A DNA stretch of 64,000 bases from the NCBI RefSeq assembly GCF_000277795.1, contig NC_018149.1, positions 124,001 to 188,000 on the forward strand, written 5' to 3'. The notes under the pieces are model-generated. The model was not told the origin of the DNA, ran no database searches, and saw only the letters and a list, made by a program, of their open reading frames with translations. The stretch comes from Mycoplasma wenyonii str. Massachusetts (GTDB lineage Bacteria; Bacillota_I; Bacilli_A; Mycoplasmatales; Mycoplasmoidaceae). A program made the translations under genes and the position numbers. Below, in pieces: positions 16,427-49,726 of this stretch; position 1 is the first letter of the stretch; every line of letters begins with the position of its first letter.

Positions 16427-19400
16427 ATGCTAACCCTCTTCACGATCAAAAAAATTTTATTTTTTGGGGCTATAGGAACAGGTGTCTTAGGCCCTATTAT
16501 TGGTACCTCTCCAGTAATAAGAGAGTTTACTTGAGGCGGTTCAGATATCTCTCCCTTAAAGGAAGGTATTTTTGACTTAGCCAATGTAAATATATATGAC
16601 AATGTAAGCATTCCCGCCTTCCTTAAACAAGCCCTGATCTTTAAGGAGGGTCAAGAAGGTTTAGTTGAATCCTTTGCTCAAGAACTAGCTAAAAGATGAT
16701 ATTTCTCTCAACCTTCTAATTGAACTGAAGAGCAGAGATCCAATTGAAAAGAACTACAAAAAAAACAATTTGAAGATGCTTGAAAGAGTATTAATCCTAA
16801 AAATCACCAAAGAGACTTCTGAGATAACTACTGAGGCTCCAGAGAAAGTATGGAGTCTTTTTGACTAAGACACAATAGTTACAAACTAGTTAAGTCTTTC
16901 TTAACTGATGTCAAGAAATCTGATTTTGCTTTAAGTGAATCTTGAGAGTGACATAAGAGTGGAGGAAATAGCAATAGCAACGGAGAACTCTTTAAAAGAA
17001 AAGTTTTTGCGAGCGATGAAGAATTAGAAAAACCAGATAGTTGAAAAAAGATTGGCTTCTTCCCCTCTAAATCTAGAGAGCATTTCAAAGATGAAAAGTG
17101 AAAGAAATTTATTCAGGGAAAGTTTGACTTTATTAATTGAAGTTACAAGAAGTGATTTGATCGAACTCTTCCTATGTATTTCTGAAAAATTAGTTGATAC
17201 TATGACAAAAATGCAACTAATTCAGAGATAGAGAAAGAGTACAGCAAAAAACATTTAAAAGAGCACTTTCCCTCAAAAGCAAATTATTCTTTCCCTGTTT
17301 TCTCTAAAAAGACTATTGAGAAATTTAAGTCATTTATTAAGAATGTTTCGGAAAGTAACGCGGAAAGTTCCGGTAGCAGCAGTGTTGGTCAAGAAAAACT
17401 AGAACTTGAGAAATACTATATTGACAACTGAAAGGGGGATCAATCTTCCCCAGCCACCTTACTTGAGATACTTAATTCTTTTGAAGGAGCAACTCCGGAG
17501 TATGCCTCTGTAGCTTCTTATTTAGTTAATAAGGTACTAAGTGGTAACTCAACTGCAGGGGCTGGCGACCGCGTAGGACAAAATGACTCCCAAATAAATA
17601 AGTTAGAAGGACAAACCATAAAAACAAAAAACGGAGATCTTAATGATCCAATCTCAATCTTTTTTGATGAGAATGGAGGAACTGGCAAAAATAACAATAC
17701 CAACATCTCTTTTGATTCTGAAATTCTCACGAAAAAAACAGAATCTAAAAAACATAAATATGTTCATGATGTCAGAGAAACTGATGCTGGATGAATTTTT
17801 TTCAGGGATGCCGATGGAGCCCATGCCTTAGCTTTAGATGGTCATCGTTATTTAGAAAGAAAGAGTGGCACTAGTGAACAAAATGAAGATGCCAAAAACA
17901 AATTATTTAATTGGTTTAATTTCAGAAATCTTCAATCTAGTGAAACTAGAAGAAATTGATCTTCTGGAAAGAAATTCTTAAATCTTTCTGAAACAGATAA
18001 TTGGTTCTCTAAGTTCTCTGACTATCTAAATACCAACTTTGATAAATTACTGGCAGAATATTTTGTTAGAGACAATAATGGCAACAAGGAATTATTTGAA
18101 CTTTTAAAAGAAGAAGATAAAAGCTACTTCAACAAATATAAAGATGTATTAACTAAGATATTTGGTCTTTGAAGTACTAATGAGTGAAATTCAAAGATAT
18201 TTGGACTAAGACAAAAAATCATTGGAAGATACAGCTCTATAGATTGAAAGAAAGAAGGTTATGGAAATTCAAATATCAAAGTAGTAACTAAACAAGGTTT
18301 ATCTTCTCCATTTCCCTTTGCAACTGATTTTTCAGATAGCAAAAAAGAAAGATTCAAAAGCCAAGAGAATGTATTCAATGAATTTCTAAAACCGAAGGAA
18401 CAAGCGACTCAATCTGTAGTTGCCGTAAAAGTTTCTGATCCGGTAGAAGCCGAATCACCAAATCCTCAAGATTCTGCAACTGCAAAAAAATTTATTGAAT
18501 ATCACAAATCCATACAAGAGTTATTGGATGGTAACAAGATTGATCTAAAAATCAGAAGTAAAGGTTTTGATTTCCAAAGTAGCCAAAGATTATTTGTTAA
18601 TGACTCAATCTTTGACTATCTGCAAGATAAGTTATTTGCCAATAAAGATTTATTGAACTATCAAGTAAAAGAAGGAAAGTTATTAAATAGTGGGTTTTTT
18701 CGAGGAAATAGTTTACTTAAGGACAAAAAAGACAATCATCAAAATGAAACCAATCTTCCTTGGTTAGCACCTCTTAATGTAGAAAAGAACTTATCTGAAT
18801 TTTTACAAGTTCCACCGAAATTAACTCAAGCCAACGCACAACAACCAGCAACTGGGGCTCAGAATAATGGATGTTGAAAATGTGAATCTTTTCAATCCGG
18901 AAAAAATGAAGAAACAAACAAAAGCAGTCTTGAATCCCTTCTTAACAAACTCCTAAAGATTTATTTTTTCAAAAATTACCTAAAAACTGTTAAAGAAGAT
19001 TACTTTGATTTCTTATCTGACTTTCCCTCCGGACAAAGAAAAAATGGAGCAGGCGTAGAGCAACAACAAGAAAGTCAAGTTCAATTAACAAACACCACTA
19101 AATTTGACTTTCTAACTGATGAATTGTTTGAAAAGTGAAGAAAGAGTTATCTTTCAGATATCAAAGAAAGAAATAACTTTTTAGATTTCTTAATAACTCT
19201 CAGTTATTTATCAAAAAAGAACTTTGAAGGTTTAAGAGAAGCTATGAAAGTTGAATTAGTTTCAAGCACTGACTATCATTATCTACTTTTCGAAGCTACT
19301 TCAAATAAGACAACAGAAGGGGAACAAAACAAAAAGCCGATTCACCCCTTCTTAGGCAAAAAGAATGGAGAAGCGGAAGATAGTTCAGAACAAAACTTCT

Positions 19401-20236
19401 TTGAGAGTCGAGAAAAAGCAAGACAGCACATCCGAGAAAATTGAAGAACTGTTGGAAAATTAAGCCTCTCAAATCCTCCAACAATTCCCCAAACTACCGG
19501 AGAAACAAAAGATGCAATATACAAACAATTAATAACTGAAAAACCTAGTCTACCAAGCAAAACAGACAAAAACAATCTCTTTAATTTCAAAGATCTAAAA
19601 GGATTAATAGATCGAATTAAAAATATCTCTAGTCCCTCTGACTTTGATAAATTAGTAACTCTAATTTCCAAAGTACATACCAAAGTAATACCTGATTTCT
19701 ACAGAGGAGATAAGTTATTCACTAAAGAGAAAAAAGAAAAAAAGATTTATTTAGAAGAAAAGAAAAAACTATTAGTTTATCAATTATTACACACCGATCA
19801 AGGACCTTTCTATTCCTCTTCTGAAATAGAGAAAGAAAATGAAATATTGTCCAAAGATATTGACAAAATTGCACAAGAGGCAAAACTTAGTGAGAATAGC
19901 GGCACAACTGCAGTAGCTGTTCAAACCACTTCAGGTGGTAGTGGCGGAACAGAAAAAAAACACCTAAATTCAAAGTACTTCAATAGAGAAAAAGGAACAA
20001 CTAAAGATGGTGGTTACTTCATTCAAGTGTCTTCAAAAGACTTTGAAGATGAAAGCTCTACTTGTGAATTCTTTAACTTACTACCTATAGAGCTATTAGC
20101 AGAATTTCTTGCTCTAGAGGCAGATAAGCCTTTAAACAAAGACAAAGCACAGAAGAGCTTCTTTGATGGCACTTCTAGAGTAAAAGCAAGAGATATGAAG
20201 TTCAAGAGCCATGTAGATAGTAAGCATGTGGAATAA
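16427..20236 (+). CDS. Very large putative secreted or surface protein
   Basis: 1269 residues from the ATG at 16427 to TAA, one frame with about 30 TGA Trp codons. AAGAGG just upstream of the ATG could serve as a ribosome binding site. The N-terminus (TIKKILFFGAIGTGVLGPI) is a signal peptide or signal anchor without a lipobox Cys. The body is hydrophilic, rich in Lys, Asn, Ser, Phe and Trp, with low-complexity Ser/Gly/Gln linkers (NVSESNAESSGSSS-like and TTSGGSGGTE). There is no C-terminal membrane segment. No domain is recognised. It is followed by a similar large gene with a 1-nt overlap, so the two probably form one transcript and may act together. Confidence 0.8.
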
Positions 20237-23200
20237 TGCTTTGAATTAAAAAGCTCTTATTCACTACTATCCTTGGTACCAGTGTTATTGCACCTTCAGT
20301 AACTCTTACCAGACAACAAGAGGCTCTTGAAAGATTAGAGCTAGATTCAACCCTTAAGAAATGAAACAGATTATTAGAAAAGATTTCCGGAGATTCAGAA
20401 ATGGAAAAACTATCAAAGATATTTGCCAAAAACCTAACTACTTTTTCTAGGTTTGCACTAATTAATGCAGTCAAACAACTCTTAATGGGGTGAGCTATCA
20501 AGATCTGAGAGAATCAAGAAGATTTCTTTCCTATTTCTCAAAGACTAAATAAGTTCTTTTTCTATCATCACATTTACCACTGAAAAACAAAAAATGAAGT
20601 AGAAGAACTATCTTGAGAGTTAATAAAGAAGTTCTTTATTGACTTCTTCTTCAATGAAAAAGGTTGATTTCTTTTATCTCAATTTGGTGACTTTAGCTCT
20701 TTTGTTCTAAAGGAATGAGAAGAAAAAGAAAGACCTATGAAGTTGTATGAGTGAAAGATATCTTATTCCAATGCTGGAGAAGAGAGTAGTTCCCCAGAAT
20801 CAAAAAAATCCAAACTTTATGACTCAGCTGTTTTAGAGAGCTTAAAGACTAGAGTTCCCTATCTATTTCCAGAAATAGAGGGAAATAAAGAATACTCAAC
20901 TCTAATCTCTAGACTAACTCACAAGAATGAGATTGAACTCAATCTCTTTAAGAAAAAATGAGTAACTATCTCAGATTTATCAAAAATCACTGATGGTTAT
21001 GCTCTAGGGGCTTTGTTACACATGTATGCACAGCAAAGTACTAGACCACAAACAACTTCAGCACCCGCCCCAAACACAGATCAAGTCACCACTCTAGGGT
21101 TAAAGAAGGGATCGCAACAACAAAATACTCCCGACCCTCTTAAGAATCCTCTATATATCTTTGCTGGCGGTAGCGAATCAAGTGGCGCAGGACAAGGTTC
21201 TGAGAGTGGAAAGTGTTTAACCATCGATTCTTCCCTCTTTAAAGAAGAAATAAAGAAAGAATTTAAGGGAAAAGATCTTTGTATTTATGGAGTTAGATGA
21301 ATAAATCAATGAGAAAATGGTGGTGGAGGGGGAGGAGGCAGCGGCTCTTCCGCCCCAAACAAACCCAAAATACTTGTCTCCAGAGAAATGGATGGAATTA
21401 GTTTTTATTATTCAGCAGAAGATTCAAAGTTAAAGGCAGAAAACGGTCAACAAAAAACCCTCAACCAGCAAGAACCAGAAGTTATTGAAAAAGTTAAACA
21501 ATATCTAACTGATAATTTTGAAACTATATTTGCTAAGTTTTTAGTTTCAAAGAAAGGAAAAAATGGAGACCAAAATTACACACCATTCACTATCAAGTCA
21601 ATTAATACTACTAGTTCAGATAAGAGTCAAACTTTTGACTTTACTGAATTCTTTAAGAAAAATTCAGGTGTAATTGATGCTTCTGTCGCTTATCTTGAAG
21701 ATCTCTATTGAACTGAAAAAATCAAAGTTTTGCAAAACATATTATTAAGTGTTTACAAACACACTCCGCAAAATATTCAAATAAAAAGACAAACTTCTGG
21801 ACAAAAAAACAATATTTCATTAAAAAAAGAATCTGGACTTTTTGCCCCTCTACCCTTCAAGAGAAGTAATGGTGAGGAAACTACCAAAAAACTAGAACTC
21901 CCTTTAGCCGAAAGTAGTGGCACAACTAATTCACAAAAACATGAATTCTTTGAAGATTTACTGAAACTTTTGCCAACCAAACAACAAGATTCACGGGCAC
22001 AAAAAATTTCTCTAAAGAGCAAAGCTGAGGAACTAAAGAAATTAATAACAAATAAAAATGGACAAAAGCCTTTTAGTGAAGATTCTTTAAGAAAACTATT
22101 CTTAGAGAATTCTTATTTCAGAGCTCAGCTAGAGGCAATATCAGGAAACAAATTAAAGGCCATTGATACTATCTTTGCCCTTAAAGCTGAAGAAATATTG
22201 TTTCCAAACAAAGGCGCAAGTGGAGAAACAAGTAAAGATTTCTCAAAACTCTTACAAGAATTTGCAAAGACTATAAAGGGTACTGGAGGAGAAGGACAAA
22301 CTCAAGACAACAACACCTGAGAAGACTTAATCAATAAAGGTCTTTTCCTAGAACCCTTCTTAAACAGTCCTATCGAGAAAAAACTTTTGTATGGATCTTT
22401 TTCTTCAAGCGAACAAGTAGCCCCAGAAGGAAGTAGTGGCACAAGTACAAAAGAAATTACCAATAAATCTAAGAACGACTGAATGCTAGATAATTTCTAT
22501 TTCAGTGATTCAGGATATGAAAGTTCAGCAACTAGCTATAAAGAGTTATTAGCTTTTCTTCTATCTATTAAGTGATTAACAGAAAATAATCATTCTAATT
22601 TCGAAAAACTAATAAATCACATATTTAGTAAGAACAAGAACAAAAATGCTTATTTGGTTTGAACTCAAGAGATTACTTCAGAGGAAAAGAAGAAATTAGA
22701 GGGGGAAGGGGGTCAACAAGAGCAACAAGAACAAGAAGCCCAACCTGAATCTAAATTAAAAGAATTCTTCAAAGAAACTATTTCTAAAGAACTTTCTAAT
22801 CCATTGTTAAGTGGAGAAAATACAATGGCTGGTTCCGTGGGAGAAGATGGTGGAGGTGGCAAAGCACAAACTAAGAATTTCTCTTCCAAAAACTCACTTT
22901 ATGAAACAGATGCTTATAAAAATGGACAGACTGGTGACGGACAAAAAACTAAATTGGGTGGTTTTCTCGGTTTAGTTACAGAATCCTTTTCTACCAGAGA
23001 TGTTCCTCCTGCTCTAAAAAACTATATTTTTGGTGACTTCTTGAAATTTAACTCTACAGAAAATAAAAATTATTCTATTGAAGGTGCAGGCCCACAAGCT
23101 GAAGGTGGAGCAAAAGGCATTGTAGAAGGTGCCTTCTTTTCAGATAATCACAAGAGAAACTTGACAAAAAACAGTGATTTACTCGATCTATTAAAAGAAG

Positions 23201-23697
23201 CTAAAAAGAAAACCAGTTTACTGAGATATCTTGATAAAGAAACTTCCAATTCTCTTCTAATTGCCCTAAGTCAATCTGAAAAATCTGAGGAAGTAAGTGA
23301 ACTAACTCTTGAAGAATTAAAAGAAGAGTTATCTAAAGCTTTAAAGTCTAGTGACACCGCACAAGTTGCTGAAGCCCCAACAAGCTCACAAAGTACCGCA
23401 ATCAAAGATCTTTACAAACTCTTCAATAGATTCTCTGGTTACATTTATTCTTCCAAAGGTGATCAAAAATCTCCTTATGTATTTACCGAAAAGAAAGAAG
23501 GAGAAAAAGAAGAAAAGTACTACGTTGGGTTTGTATATCAAGTCAATAGATTTGACTTTGATTCAGAAGGAATTAAAAAACTAAAAGAAAATCTTTCTGA
23601 AAACACTCTAAACACTCTAATAACGCTATTAGCTTCTAATAGAGAAATTAGAGACTGAATATATGAAAGTGAGATTATTAGACAGCTAAGTCTTTAA
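20236..23697 (+). CDS. Very large putative secreted or surface protein, second of pair
   Basis: 1153 residues. The ATG overlaps the previous stop (TAATG), a typical coupled arrangement. The N-terminus LWIKKLLFTTILGTSVIAPSV is a signal-anchor-like segment, close in style to the gene upstream. The remainder is hydrophilic and rich in Lys, Glu, Phe and Ser, with Gly/Ser/Gln-rich linkers (GGGGGGGSGSSAP-like near 21320, and EGGGQQEQQEQEA-like near 22700). No known domain is seen. The pair occupies 7.3 kb, an expensive investment for a reduced genome, which suggests an important host-facing role; this is inference. The stop overlaps the convergent DJ-1 gene by 4 nt. Confidence 0.8.
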
Positions 23698-24325: not shown

Positions 24326-24570
24326 TGGTGGAAGTAATGGGTTATGCTCCCATCTCCGTTAGAGACTCCTATTTTCCCTACTCCTTAAGCGCGACTAAAT
24401 CCCTCTGCCTAAAAGTTAATTAAAAGACTAAAACGCTAACGCGCCTAGTTGTTGACCTCTACCGACTAAAAGATTTATGTTTCTTTTTGGATTTTTTTAA
24501 CAGTTTAAAGGCACTGCTAGGCCCGTCGCAGAGTAGGTCGAGCCTCTTCGTCTATCTTAGAACTACTCCC
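24326..24570 (-). ncRNA. ssrA: tmRNA, compact form
   Basis: Minus strand. The 5' end GGGAGTA pairs over seven positions with TACTTCC, which is followed by A and CCA at the 3' end. Inside this, AGAGGCTC pairs with GAGTCTCT and CCTACTC with GAGTAGG, giving the long tmRNA helix H2. Next is an H-type pseudoknot (GGGC with GCCT interleaved with GCAGT/ACTGT) in the PK1 place. After it an open frame of 22 codons begins AAA-AAT-CCA and ends LGALAF then TAG, as expected for a proteolysis tag. The RNA is only 245 nt, so the usual extra pseudoknots seem lost. The T-loop (AGCATAA between ATGGG and CCCAT) is unlike the normal TTCRANN, and the D-part is diverged. tmRNA rescues stalled ribosomes. Confidence 0.85.
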
Positions 24571-24694
24571 ATATTAAATTTATTCCCTCAGACACAAAAA
24601 AAACAATTACTTAGGCAACATATTTGAACTAGATGGTGAGTAGAAAAATTCCGTCTTTTTCCCCTTTTCCGCTAATTAATGAATAAGAAATTAC

Positions 24695-25276
24695 TTGACA
24701 CAAAAGTTGATAATCAAATTCCTTTGTTCTGACATAGAACCCCTAGGGATTGAAAAAGGTCAAGAAATAATTCATGATCGCTTCAAGATGGAATTAGCTA
24801 AAGCAGATGAAATAAAAATCTCTGTTGCTTATTGTTCAGAAGACTCTTTGTGGGAACTAGAGAGATTAGTTGACTTATACGAGATTAAAAAAGTGAATGT
24901 AGTTTTAGGAATGTATAGAAGTAGTAATTTTCCGGCCTCTCGATGAACAACAGCAAAAAAGATAAATAGAAAATGAAAAAAGGCGGGAATGGGAGAGATA
25001 AAGATGACCAAGAAATTGTGATACCACGGCAAAAAATATTGTTTCTTAAAAGACAATCAAATCTTTTCTGCTATTGTCGGCTCTGCAAATTTAAGCTTTT
25101 TAGACTCTAGAAATCAATCTCAATATGAAGAGGGCGTTCTAGTAGAAGAGCCAGAGGCTCTTCAAGTCATTTTGAATCAAGTCAATAAATTGCTTTCTAA
25201 GGATGTCTCCGAAAACGTATCCAAAATTATGAGAAAATCATCTTCTCGGGGAAAAAAGTCCAAAAAAAAGAAATAA
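24695..25276 (+). CDS. PLD-family nuclease, NgoFVII/BfiI-type catalytic subunit
   Basis: 193 residues from TTG at 24695. The order of residues matches the single-site PLD nucleases of the NgoFVII/BfiI restriction family: His111-x-Lys113 (WYHGKKY), then IVGSANLSF with Asn132, then QYEEGVL with Glu145. The N-terminal half (KADEIKISVAYCSEDSLWEL, VNVVLGMYR) matches the first strand region of such enzymes. The product ends with a basic tail and lacks the C-terminal B3-like DNA-binding domain that the full-length enzymes carry. Two following genes, each after exactly 39 nt, look like that missing domain. No DNA methyltransferase is seen in the window. An alternative is a stand-alone PLD nuclease with no restriction role. 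Confidence 0.78.
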
Positions 25277-25315
25277 ACACAATTTCTAAAATGAATTGCA
25301 CAACAAATTTCTAAT

Positions 25316-25903
25316 ATGAGTTCTTACGGTGAAATGTCTCTAAAAGAGCTATTTAATGCAAAAGTTTTACAAACTATTGTTTTTCCATTAGTGGTACCCA
25401 CCTCACAGGAGATAAAAAAATTTGATTTCTCTAAATCAGACTTAAATGCCTGTTATTCCAAGCCACCAATAAATTCCAGAAACGGACAAGAACAAAGTTG
25501 ATTCGAGGTTAAGTTAACTGTTGTTGGTGAACACAACTTACCACCAAGAAAAGAATGGTTTTATGTGGTCATGGAAGATGGAAATATATTTAAGGCTCAT
25601 TTTTCCGGAAAAAAGACTAAAAAATTAGTTACCTTTGAAGACACAAGTCTCATAGGTCACTGTATTAAGAGTATGTTTTTTGATAGAAGGTTGGTGAAAG
25701 ATTTTGAATACTGCTTTGATGATCCTTATAAGTACGGAGTGATCACTAAAGAAATGTTGGATTCATATGGAAGTGCAGAAGTAATCTTGAAAAAAACAAA
25801 TAAGACCAAAACAGACGGTAAAGGAAATAAAAGAGACATTTGGATATTCTCTTTCCCCTTAATGCCTGACCTTCTCGATGAAGAGTGGAGAGAAGAATAT
25901 TAA
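25316..25903 (+). CDS. DNA-binding-like protein, NgoFVII C-terminal domain type, copy 1
   Basis: 195 residues from the ATG at 25316. The pattern LNACYSKPPINSRNGQEQSW, then EWFYVVMEDGNIFKAHFSGK, then LIGHCIKSM, GVITKEMLDSYGSAEVILKK and DIWIFSFP resembles the B3-like recognition domain found at the C-terminus of NgoFVII/BfiI-type restriction enzymes. This is pattern recognition from memory and needs a profile search. It is a stand-alone protein placed 39 nt after the nuclease gene. Three of its four Trp codons are TGG rather than TGA, unlike most genes here, a weak hint of later acquisition. The next gene is a clear paralog. Confidence 0.65.
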
Positions 25904-25942
25904 GTAACTTAATAAAAATGTCACTTACAAAAGATTTTTAGT

Positions 25943-26578
25943 ATGTATTCCTACTACGAAATATCCCTAGAAGAAGTACTTAATGCAAAAGTTTTACAAA
26001 CCATTGTTTTTCCGTTAACAGCACCTACTGATAAAGAGGTAGAGGGTGGTTGAGAAAAACTAGATTTATCCAAATCCAACTTAAATGCTTGCTATAGTAA
26101 ACCAGAAATAAATGAAAGAAGTGGGCAAGAGAGAAGTTGATTTGATGTAACTCTAACTGTTGAAGGAGAACATGATTTACCACCAAAGAAGGAATGATTT
26201 TATGTAGTTACTAGATATGGTGATTGTTTCAAAGCACACTTTACAGGCAAAAAGACTAAGAAATTAGTTTCTCTCGAAGATAGAAATATTATTGGTTATT
26301 TCATTAAGAGCATGTTGGTGGAATGGGAATTATTCACTGAATTGAGTTATTGTTTCTATGATCCAGAGGGCTATGGAATTATTACTAAAGAAATGTTGGA
26401 AAAACGTATGGGCTCAAAAGTTACTTTGAGAAAGACTAACAAGACCAAAACAGACGGCAGAGGAAACAAAAGAGATATTTGGATATTTTCTTTTCCAATA
26501 GAAAATGAAGAGGAAGGCTGAGACAGATTAAGAGAAAAGAGTGTTAGTAACTTAATAAAGATACAAACACTACCTTAA
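25943..26578 (+). CDS. DNA-binding-like protein, NgoFVII C-terminal domain type, copy 2
   Basis: 211 residues from the ATG at 25943. It is a close paralog of the gene at 25316: both share NAKVLQTIVFPL, KSDLNACYSKP-like and KKTNKTKTDG stretches and the C-terminal RDIWIFSFP. It adds about 25 residues at the C-terminus (EGWDRLREKS...). The gap to copy 1 is again 39 nt. Two copies could recognise two half-sites or two different sequences with one shared nuclease; this is inference. Four of six Trp codons are TGA. Confidence 0.65.
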
Positions 26579-26737
26579 TTAAGCAAAAATAACTATTAAT
26601 TAGAAAATTTCACTTCTAATGTTCATCTTCTTTTATCTCAGAAAGACAAAGGCCATTTAAGTTATGTTCGGGAGAAGATAAGTTTTCTGTTAGTCGAACA
26701 AATATTGACTCTGATCAGAGCTGAATACTTCAAAAAA

Positions 26738-27895
26738 CTAACTCCAGGGGGGAAAGATATTTATAAAGACACTGTTTGAATGTGCTACTGCACTTAGCAA
26801 TGCAGTTAGGTTATGTAAGAAGTGAACAAATATACTAATCCAGATATTCCTATATTTCTTATAGCTTCAAGCAAACACTAACCCCCCACAGAAATAAGGC
26901 AATAGGTGAAAGATAGTTTCTTTTGAACTATTTAAGTGAATTAGTCCAAATATAAGTGCAGAAGAGAATAGAGTGGAGGTATGAAAATTAGCTGTCTTTA
27001 ATATAGACCTTCTATAGATTAGCTCTTCAAATACAGGAGCAAAGATTAAGACAGAAATAACAATCATGATTATTCTGGCATCTTTTAGTGAAGTCGTAAT
27101 TCTCTTTTGGTTTTCTGTATTTGCCGCCCCACTTGTTGGAAAGATAGTCTGTAATAAATGAGCAAAAGCAATTGAAACAGCAAGTTCTGCTATAAGGATT
27201 AGTCATATTCTTGAACCAAAGAACTTAACTCTTTCTCAAGAGAACACCCCTCTATCATTCCAAAAAATTAACTTAAAGTGAGGTCCCAGAGTAGACATTG
27301 AGTTCTTGATATAGAAGTAGTTAGAGGCAAAATAAACTATTTGAATACCTAGAGCAATTAGAGCTATTGCATCCAGCTCTTTTGAATCATCATTTTTTCT
27401 AAAAAAATCAAGAATAGGATTTAAGGATGCAATCAGAATTGAGTTGATGAATCACAGCTTGTACTCTGGTTCAATTTTTGATTCTTGTTGTCCCTTTTCG
27501 AGACTTGTAGGAGACTTAAAGTACTTTAGATAAAAAAGAAAAAAAGCTCCAACAACAAATCTTCAACCTATATTGATATAGCTACAAGGGGAACTTTGAA
27601 ATCATTTAGAATCAGTGGTTTGTTGTTGAACTTGTTGCTGTTGAGTTTGTACTAAAGTGTTGATGAAAGTATTTGCAACTGCTGAGGTCGCCGCTTGAGC
27701 CTGAGTTGACTGAACACTCGCACCATTGTTTCCTCAATTACTAAAAAAATCAATAGTTGAACAAATTAATAAAAAGACTTCAAAAAAATAAGGGAGTAAA
27801 AAGAATAGTTGTAACTCTCAGAGCTTAAATTTTCCTTGGCTTGAGGAGTTGTTTTCTTTATCTAAAAATGTGAAGGAGTTATTAAATTTGCTTAT
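26738..27895 (-). CDS. CPBP-family intramembrane metalloprotease
   Basis: Open for 385 codons before TAG. No ATG, GTG or TTG is in frame near the beginning; the first plausible start is ATA at 27895. The C-terminal half has the three CPBP (CaaX protease/bacteriocin-processing) motifs in membrane segments: EELIYRR (EExxxR), FGLIHL (FxxxH) and HFLHN (HxxxN). The N-terminal half has hydrophobic segments and a Gln/Ser/Ala-rich loop (VQTQQQQVQQQTT). Substrates are unknown; family members process membrane proteins or give immunity to peptides. The gene stands alone between two plus-strand units. Confidence 0.85.
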
Positions 27896-49651: not shown

Positions 49652-49726
49652 GGGGGTGTAGTTCAATGGCAGAACAGCAGTCTTCAAAACTGCGTGTTGT
49701 GGGTTCGAGTCCTGCCACCCCCGCCA
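49652..49726 (+). tRNA. tRNA-Trp (UCA), reads UGA and UGG
   Basis: Acceptor GGGGGTG pairs with CACCCCC, then G and an encoded CCA. The anticodon arm GCAGT-CTTCAAA-ACTGC has anticodon TCA. The T-arm loop is TTCGAGT. This tRNA decodes UGA as Trp, in agreement with in-frame TGA throughout the window. The 40 nt between the two tRNAs hold no gene. Confidence 0.97.

Follow-up and report, generated by a model that had tools for sequence, protein, structure and literature searches.

Restriction enzymes are thought to be restrained by a cognate methyltransferase. SauUSI is a single chain with an ATPase and a reader of modified cytosine. The NgoAVII/NgoFVII and CglI systems consist of M (a C5-methyltransferase), R (PLD plus B3) and N or H (a DEAD-Z1 ATPase). 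Both CglI and NgoAVII recognise GCCGC (PMC4267653). BfiI, a single polypeptide accompanied by two methyltransferases, is ATP-independent and requires no ATPase (PMC4267653). The NgoFVII domain was found by domain counting to be enriched in haemoplasmas (PMC5293770). That study concerns the same domain family and the same group of organisms as the copies described here; its text mentions neither a split of the gene nor stand-alone B3 genes, the architecture of the copies, loss of a methyltransferase or avoidance of a site. In the literature that we searched (subscription papers lay outside it), the split, the copy structure and the site avoidance are not described.

The window analysed here is a 64,000-nt stretch of the genome of the blood-dwelling Mycoplasma wenyonii str. 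Massachusetts (the source genome; 650,228 bp in a single contig, TGA read as Trp). Coordinates are positions within the window, and ORFs were read with genetic code 4.

A catalytic gene followed by two recognition-domain genes

An earlier note on this DNA had described a PLD protein of 193 residues with the H-x-K, N and E set of the single-site PLD enzymes, lacking a C-terminal recognition domain and followed by two paralogous genes, each after exactly 39 nt, that resembled the missing domain. The ORFs and spacers lie exactly as placed (Table 1), and the translated PLD ORF carries the whole set, with H-x-K in the form HGK. The PLD protein matches Pfam PF09565 (NgoFVII N-terminal, E 4e-30), and the two downstream proteins match PF20731 (RE_NgoFVII_C) with E-values of 7.2e-10 and 2.3e-8, exceeding the curated cut-off. 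In the 350-aa Type II REase model of PADLOC the PLD protein covers positions 2-181 and both B3 proteins cover 217-345. Among PDB sequences the PLD protein matches R.NgoAVII (E 6.8e-11).

The AF2 model of the PLD protein (pLDDT 87.6) has R.NgoAVII (4RCT, E 2.9e-14) as its top PDB fold match, with SauUSI and BfiI next (E 1.2e-5 for BfiI). For B3 protein 1 (pLDDT 87.7) the top fold matches are the R.NgoAVII B3-DNA structures 4RDM/4RD5 (E 1.5e-7). Pfam, PADLOC, the PDB sequence search and the fold search thus agree that the downstream genes correspond to the missing recognition domain: the NgoFVII N-terminal and C-terminal B3-like domains expected in the earlier note are present as separate genes, and neither an unrelated family nor the lack of a DNA-binding fold was seen by Pfam and the AF2 fold search. 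That PLD and B3 match complementary halves of one enzyme supports a two-component nuclease. An Rfam search of the locus region gave no match.

Table 1. Features of the PLD-B3 locus (positions within the window)
Feature	Position	Strand	Remarks
PLD catalytic gene (NgoFVII/R.NgoAVII N-terminal domain)	24695..25276	+	193 aa, TTG start, code 4; H-x-K, N, E present
39-nt spacer, PLD stop to first B3 gene	25277..25315		From ORF coordinates
B3-like DNA-recognition gene 1, stand-alone (RE_NgoFVII_C)	25316..25903	+	195 aa; Pfam, PADLOC and AF2 fold match
39-nt spacer, B3 gene 1 to B3 gene 2	25904..25942		Starts with GTAACTTAATAAA, also seen close to the end of B3 gene 2
B3-like DNA-recognition gene 2, stand-alone	25943..26578	+	211 aa, 63% identity to gene 1; C-terminus extends beyond the homologous end
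Extra block between DJ-1/PfpI and Rce1-like genes	about 24583..26810		Three related genomes lack it at the orthologous site

From their sequences, the two B3 genes of the locus are tandem duplicates; the recurrence of GTAACTTAATAAA at the start of the second spacer and near the end of B3 gene 2 is expected for a tandem duplication.

Several other features of the window were observed. A roughly 270-nt intergenic stretch on the minus strand (24330-24600) is conserved in four species with 73% mean column identity. It has a CCACCA end, a GGGAGTA near the 5′ end that pairs, by eye, with TACTTCC near the 3′ end in the manner of an acceptor stem, and it folds better than its shuffles (z −2.1). Neither Rfam nor ARAGORN gave a match; the stretch is possibly an unannotated or very divergent tmRNA-like RNA. 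At 20236-23697 a 1153-aa protein spans the entire Pfam DUF3713 (E 6e-203); a second large membrane-like ORF lies upstream of it (16427-20236), with synteny conserved in the genus. The tRNA at 49652-49726 (anticodon TCA, called SeC by the program) is most likely a tRNA-Trp reading TGA.

Copy number, arrangement and distribution

Pfam detected 18 PLD and 16 B3 matches in the source genome, and an iterated profile added further B3 genes. For sixteen of the 18 PLD genes (one frameshifted) the next gene, on the same strand, is a stand-alone B3 gene; the other two have no adjacent B3 gene. There are also B3 genes and fragments beyond the paired ones, and copies L051, L052, L058 and L063 are frameshifted or fragmentary. 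The division into separate genes that the earlier note described is real but not specific to the locus: since the locus is one of about 16 PLD-B3 pairs, the split is a general feature of the genome.

The same split arrangement was found in a 702-kb genome (G024) and in Mycoplasma wenyonii INIFAP02 (G032), with one fused copy in each; these two, L065 and L066, are the only PLD-B3 fusions among the copies of the three carriers. In 30 pairs from the three genomes, both genes lie on the same strand with spacings of −44 to +39 nt. PLD and B3 are separate genes with their own starts, and at many pairs their reading frames differ. The 39-nt spacing is peculiar to the locus of Table 1; other pairs have −44 to +26 nt, mostly 1-5 nt.

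Neither domain was found in four other congeners. Matches to B3 occurred in 6 of the 392 genomes of the phylum sample, the source genome included. Outside the genus, L118 is a PLD-B3 fusion, L119-L121 have B3 behind another N-terminus and L122 is a weak stand-alone match. The statement that all other PF20731 proteins in the phylum are PLD-B3 fusions was rejected, as the N-terminus of L119-L121 has no PLD match. These three genes (L119:2474-3616, L120:6306-7445 and L121:6109-7293) carry the NgoFVII-type B3 and stand beside a C5 methyltransferase; the reader domain seems to have been swapped between nucleases. A Z1 identity for the neighbour of L118 was likewise rejected, its 3′ half being a KAP NTPase. 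Relatives in the databases, from plasmids of lactic acid bacteria and from phage-like gut contigs, have a fused R in the canonical gene order; M, R and the Z1 protein are all annotated in the plasmid relative, and the third gene of the gut contigs was called by sequence appearance only. A scan of genome contigs gave matches at the INIFAP02 loci only.

Selection on the partner genes

Both genes are under purifying selection: by the Nei-Gojobori method (code 4, dS 0.1-2; the gene pairs compared are not independent), dN/dS has a median of 0.23 in B3 and 0.31 in PLD. The partner genes co-evolve, with a correlation between PLD and B3 distance matrices of 0.88 for 15 pairs of the source genome and 0.76 for 30 pairs of the three genomes (0 of 2000 permutations as high in either case), though tandem inheritance alone could also yield such a correlation.

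H-x-K and N are retained in 31 of 34 full-length PLD proteins. Both PLD proteins of the source genome that have no adjacent B3 gene lost the H/K and N residues (HGQ/D and MGN/H); the chance of such a two-of-two loss is 1/136 given the 17 full-length PLD proteins of this genome. In B3, a stretch with LNACY and an S-W pair is nearly invariant across all copies, which fits one target common to all of them.

Probable fused ancestor and loss of the methyltransferase

The fused R of INIFAP02 (L066) adjoins an intact C5 methyltransferase (L066:3760-4812). The pair nearest to this fused gene is L048 of the source genome (support 100/97 and 100/99). At L048 the PLD start lies 13 nt downstream of the end of a C5-methyltransferase pseudogene that is interrupted by many stops; the PLD ORF shares 44 nt with the B3 ORF, which is read in another frame. 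Given this kinship, the upstream pseudogene and the out-of-frame overlap, the L048 pair seems to have arisen when the same parent gene was split a second time, independently. Since the PLD of the fused copy L065 groups with split PLDs, changes between fused and split forms may have run in either direction.

The cognate C5 methyltransferase is broken in the source genome and in G024 and intact in INIFAP02. A second C5 methyltransferase shows the same pattern: intact in INIFAP02 (L125), broken at the syntenic place in the other two. The search covered the C5, PF01555 and HsdM families. By family search the source genome has no intact C5 methyltransferase and no match to PF01555, the type to which we assume the BfiI companion methyltransferases belong; five type I HsdM genes are the only methyltransferases left among the families searched. 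The absence of a neighbouring methyltransferase, remarked on in the earlier note, accordingly holds more widely: no known NgoFVII-type enzyme adjoins the locus, and none is intact genome-wide in these families. The Z1 ATPase (PF10593) is absent from the three carrier genomes, while the positive control, C. glutamicum, was detected.

The genes on either side of the locus, DJ-1 and Rce1-like, adjoin without the extra block in INIFAP02, G024 and G046, the gene order being otherwise kept (G046 has another ORF between them). The two B3 genes of the locus are sisters (support 100/91) and form a clade with those of L057 and L060; the locus PLD groups with the PLDs of these two loci.

Depletion of a candidate target word

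The scan covered every 4-, 5- and 6-mer whose expected count was high enough (1302 words) in the three carriers and eight non-carriers, with samples of 100-297 kb per genome. GCAGC/GCTGC was the sole outlier for carrier-specific depletion. Its observed/expected ratio is 0.55, 0.34 and 0.36 in the carriers (0.55 in the source genome) vs 1.05-1.35 in the non-carriers; the between-group gap is 0.50, with 0.05 for the next word. Under a codon-aware null (synonymous codons permuted given the next base) the ratios are 0.68, 0.40 and 0.51 (z −5.3 to −5.6), with 0.97-1.11 in the eight controls. The word differs from GCCGC only at the central base, a match that the scan did not seek. GCWGC is depleted in the carriers, GCSGC not consistently so. 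Because the carriers are each other's nearest relatives (by MFS protein), the depletion counts as one evolutionary observation, not as independent ones. In the genomes with L118-L122 GCWGC is hardly depleted (0.83-1.18).

Deamination by a former C5 methyltransferase was rejected as the cause, with GTWGC/GCWAC at 0.86-1.05 in carriers. CCWGG was set aside as a target, since it is depleted in non-carriers as well. Its ratios (0.26-0.33 in carriers, 0.45-0.65 in congeners and 0.19 in G005, of another genus) suggest another restriction pressure in the family.

Proposed function and alternative explanations

We consider it likely that the pairs encode a working two-component, sequence-specific PLD nuclease whose origin is a restriction-modification system of the NgoAVII/CglI type. 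As in BfiI and R.NgoAVII, two PLD protomers would together build a single composite active site. A B3 subunit encoded by its own gene would be bound to each PLD where the fused enzyme has its C-terminal domain, and would read DNA. The parent would be an M-R operon with a fused R, as still present in INIFAP02. A break in the linker would have split R, and the resulting pairs would have multiplied to about 16 in the source genome and changed their places as the methyltransferase fell into decay; a Z1 ATPase is absent. A single 5-bp site is probably the target of every copy, and the best guess for it is GCAGC/GCTGC, which the host genomes under-use. The role is most likely restriction of foreign DNA.

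Against a working nuclease speaks that R.CglI and R.NgoAVII, the closest characterised enzymes, cannot cut without the Z1 ATPase partner (PMC4267653). The genes might instead be retired, dead remnants of an NgoAVII-type system kept as non-catalytic DNA-binding or structural proteins for another role, with the GCWGC depletion as a relic. The decayed methyltransferase, the missing ATPase, the four damaged copies and a depletion that is weakest in the source genome, as if relaxing, agree with this. We nevertheless find it unlikely in view of the purifying selection on both genes, the H-x-K/N residues retained in paired and lost in unpaired PLDs, and the B3 gene next to nearly every PLD. Rather less likely still is that PLD and B3 work with HsdS/HsdM, which would give protection or targeting. 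Seven of the eight hsdS loci of the source genome directly adjoin a PLD-B3 pair, six of them preceding the pair on its strand at distances of about 90-345 nt and one following it, which gives the order PLD, B3, HsdS, HsdM; the linked pairs are L047, L048, L049, L050, L052, L054 and L056 (contig C1, around 36, 121, 191, 208, 291, 382 and 472 kb). This linkage reflects either shared duplication or function, and duplicating one hsdS-PLD-B3 segment would give the same pattern. Moreover, no hsdS adjoins the locus of Table 1, only one hsdS of the 702-kb genome (that near the fused copy) lies close to any copy, and type I sites are bipartite, B3 sites short. An improbable explanation is a type IV-like, modification-dependent enzyme whose B3 reads modified DNA; it would need no methyltransferase, and loss of the host C5 enzymes would be expected. 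Both C5 methyltransferases of INIFAP02 are indeed broken in the source genome, and the PLD fold is common to SauUSI, a 5mC-dependent enzyme. However, INIFAP02 has split pairs along with two intact C5 methyltransferases, the B3 fold matches the unmodified-site reader of R.NgoAVII, and the site depletion suggests pressure on unmodified sites.

For the two-component nuclease itself, self-protection has to be considered: 297 kb of the source genome still contain about 96 GCWGC sites, so that an active unprotected nuclease with this target would be lethal. The nuclease may be restrained or may need two sites or a partner; alternatively, its target is longer, the search overlooked a methyltransferase, or the depletion is a relic. 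The depletion could stem from the ancestral restriction-modification system or be due to another enzyme; GCWGC may be the present target, a proposition to which we give slightly less than even weight. A more elaborate version, in which R outlived methyltransferase and ATPase, was split and grew to about 16 pairs of interchangeable cutter and reader with a common 5-bp target, and in which the host gains at least part of its protection by purging GCWGC rather than methylating it, is a speculative and rather doubtful proposal.

A PLD-B3 restriction nuclease family has expanded, and is under selection, in a strongly reduced genome where its methyltransferase is broken. It would be a two-component nuclease found in nature, with cutter and reader apart, and a testable case of whether target-word avoidance can replace methylation; GCAGC, as candidate target, can be checked by a simple binding or cutting assay.

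Comparison with known systems

With the NgoAVII/NgoFVII and CglI systems the pairs share homology of both halves, by sequence and by fold, and the H-x-K/N/E site. The fused ancestor beside a C5 methyltransferase in INIFAP02 and the M-R-N order of the plasmid and gut relatives (with the N gene of the latter as called above) also resemble NgoAVII and CglI. Unlike in those systems, R of the source genome is two genes in many copies, and neither an intact cognate methyltransferase nor a Z1 protein was found. As in BfiI, a type IIS enzyme, a single-site PLD nuclease is combined with a B3-like reader; unlike in BfiI, the two are separate in the source genome, and their sequences are closer to R.NgoAVII. 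SauUSI has the PLD nuclease fold in common with them and differs in its recognition domain.
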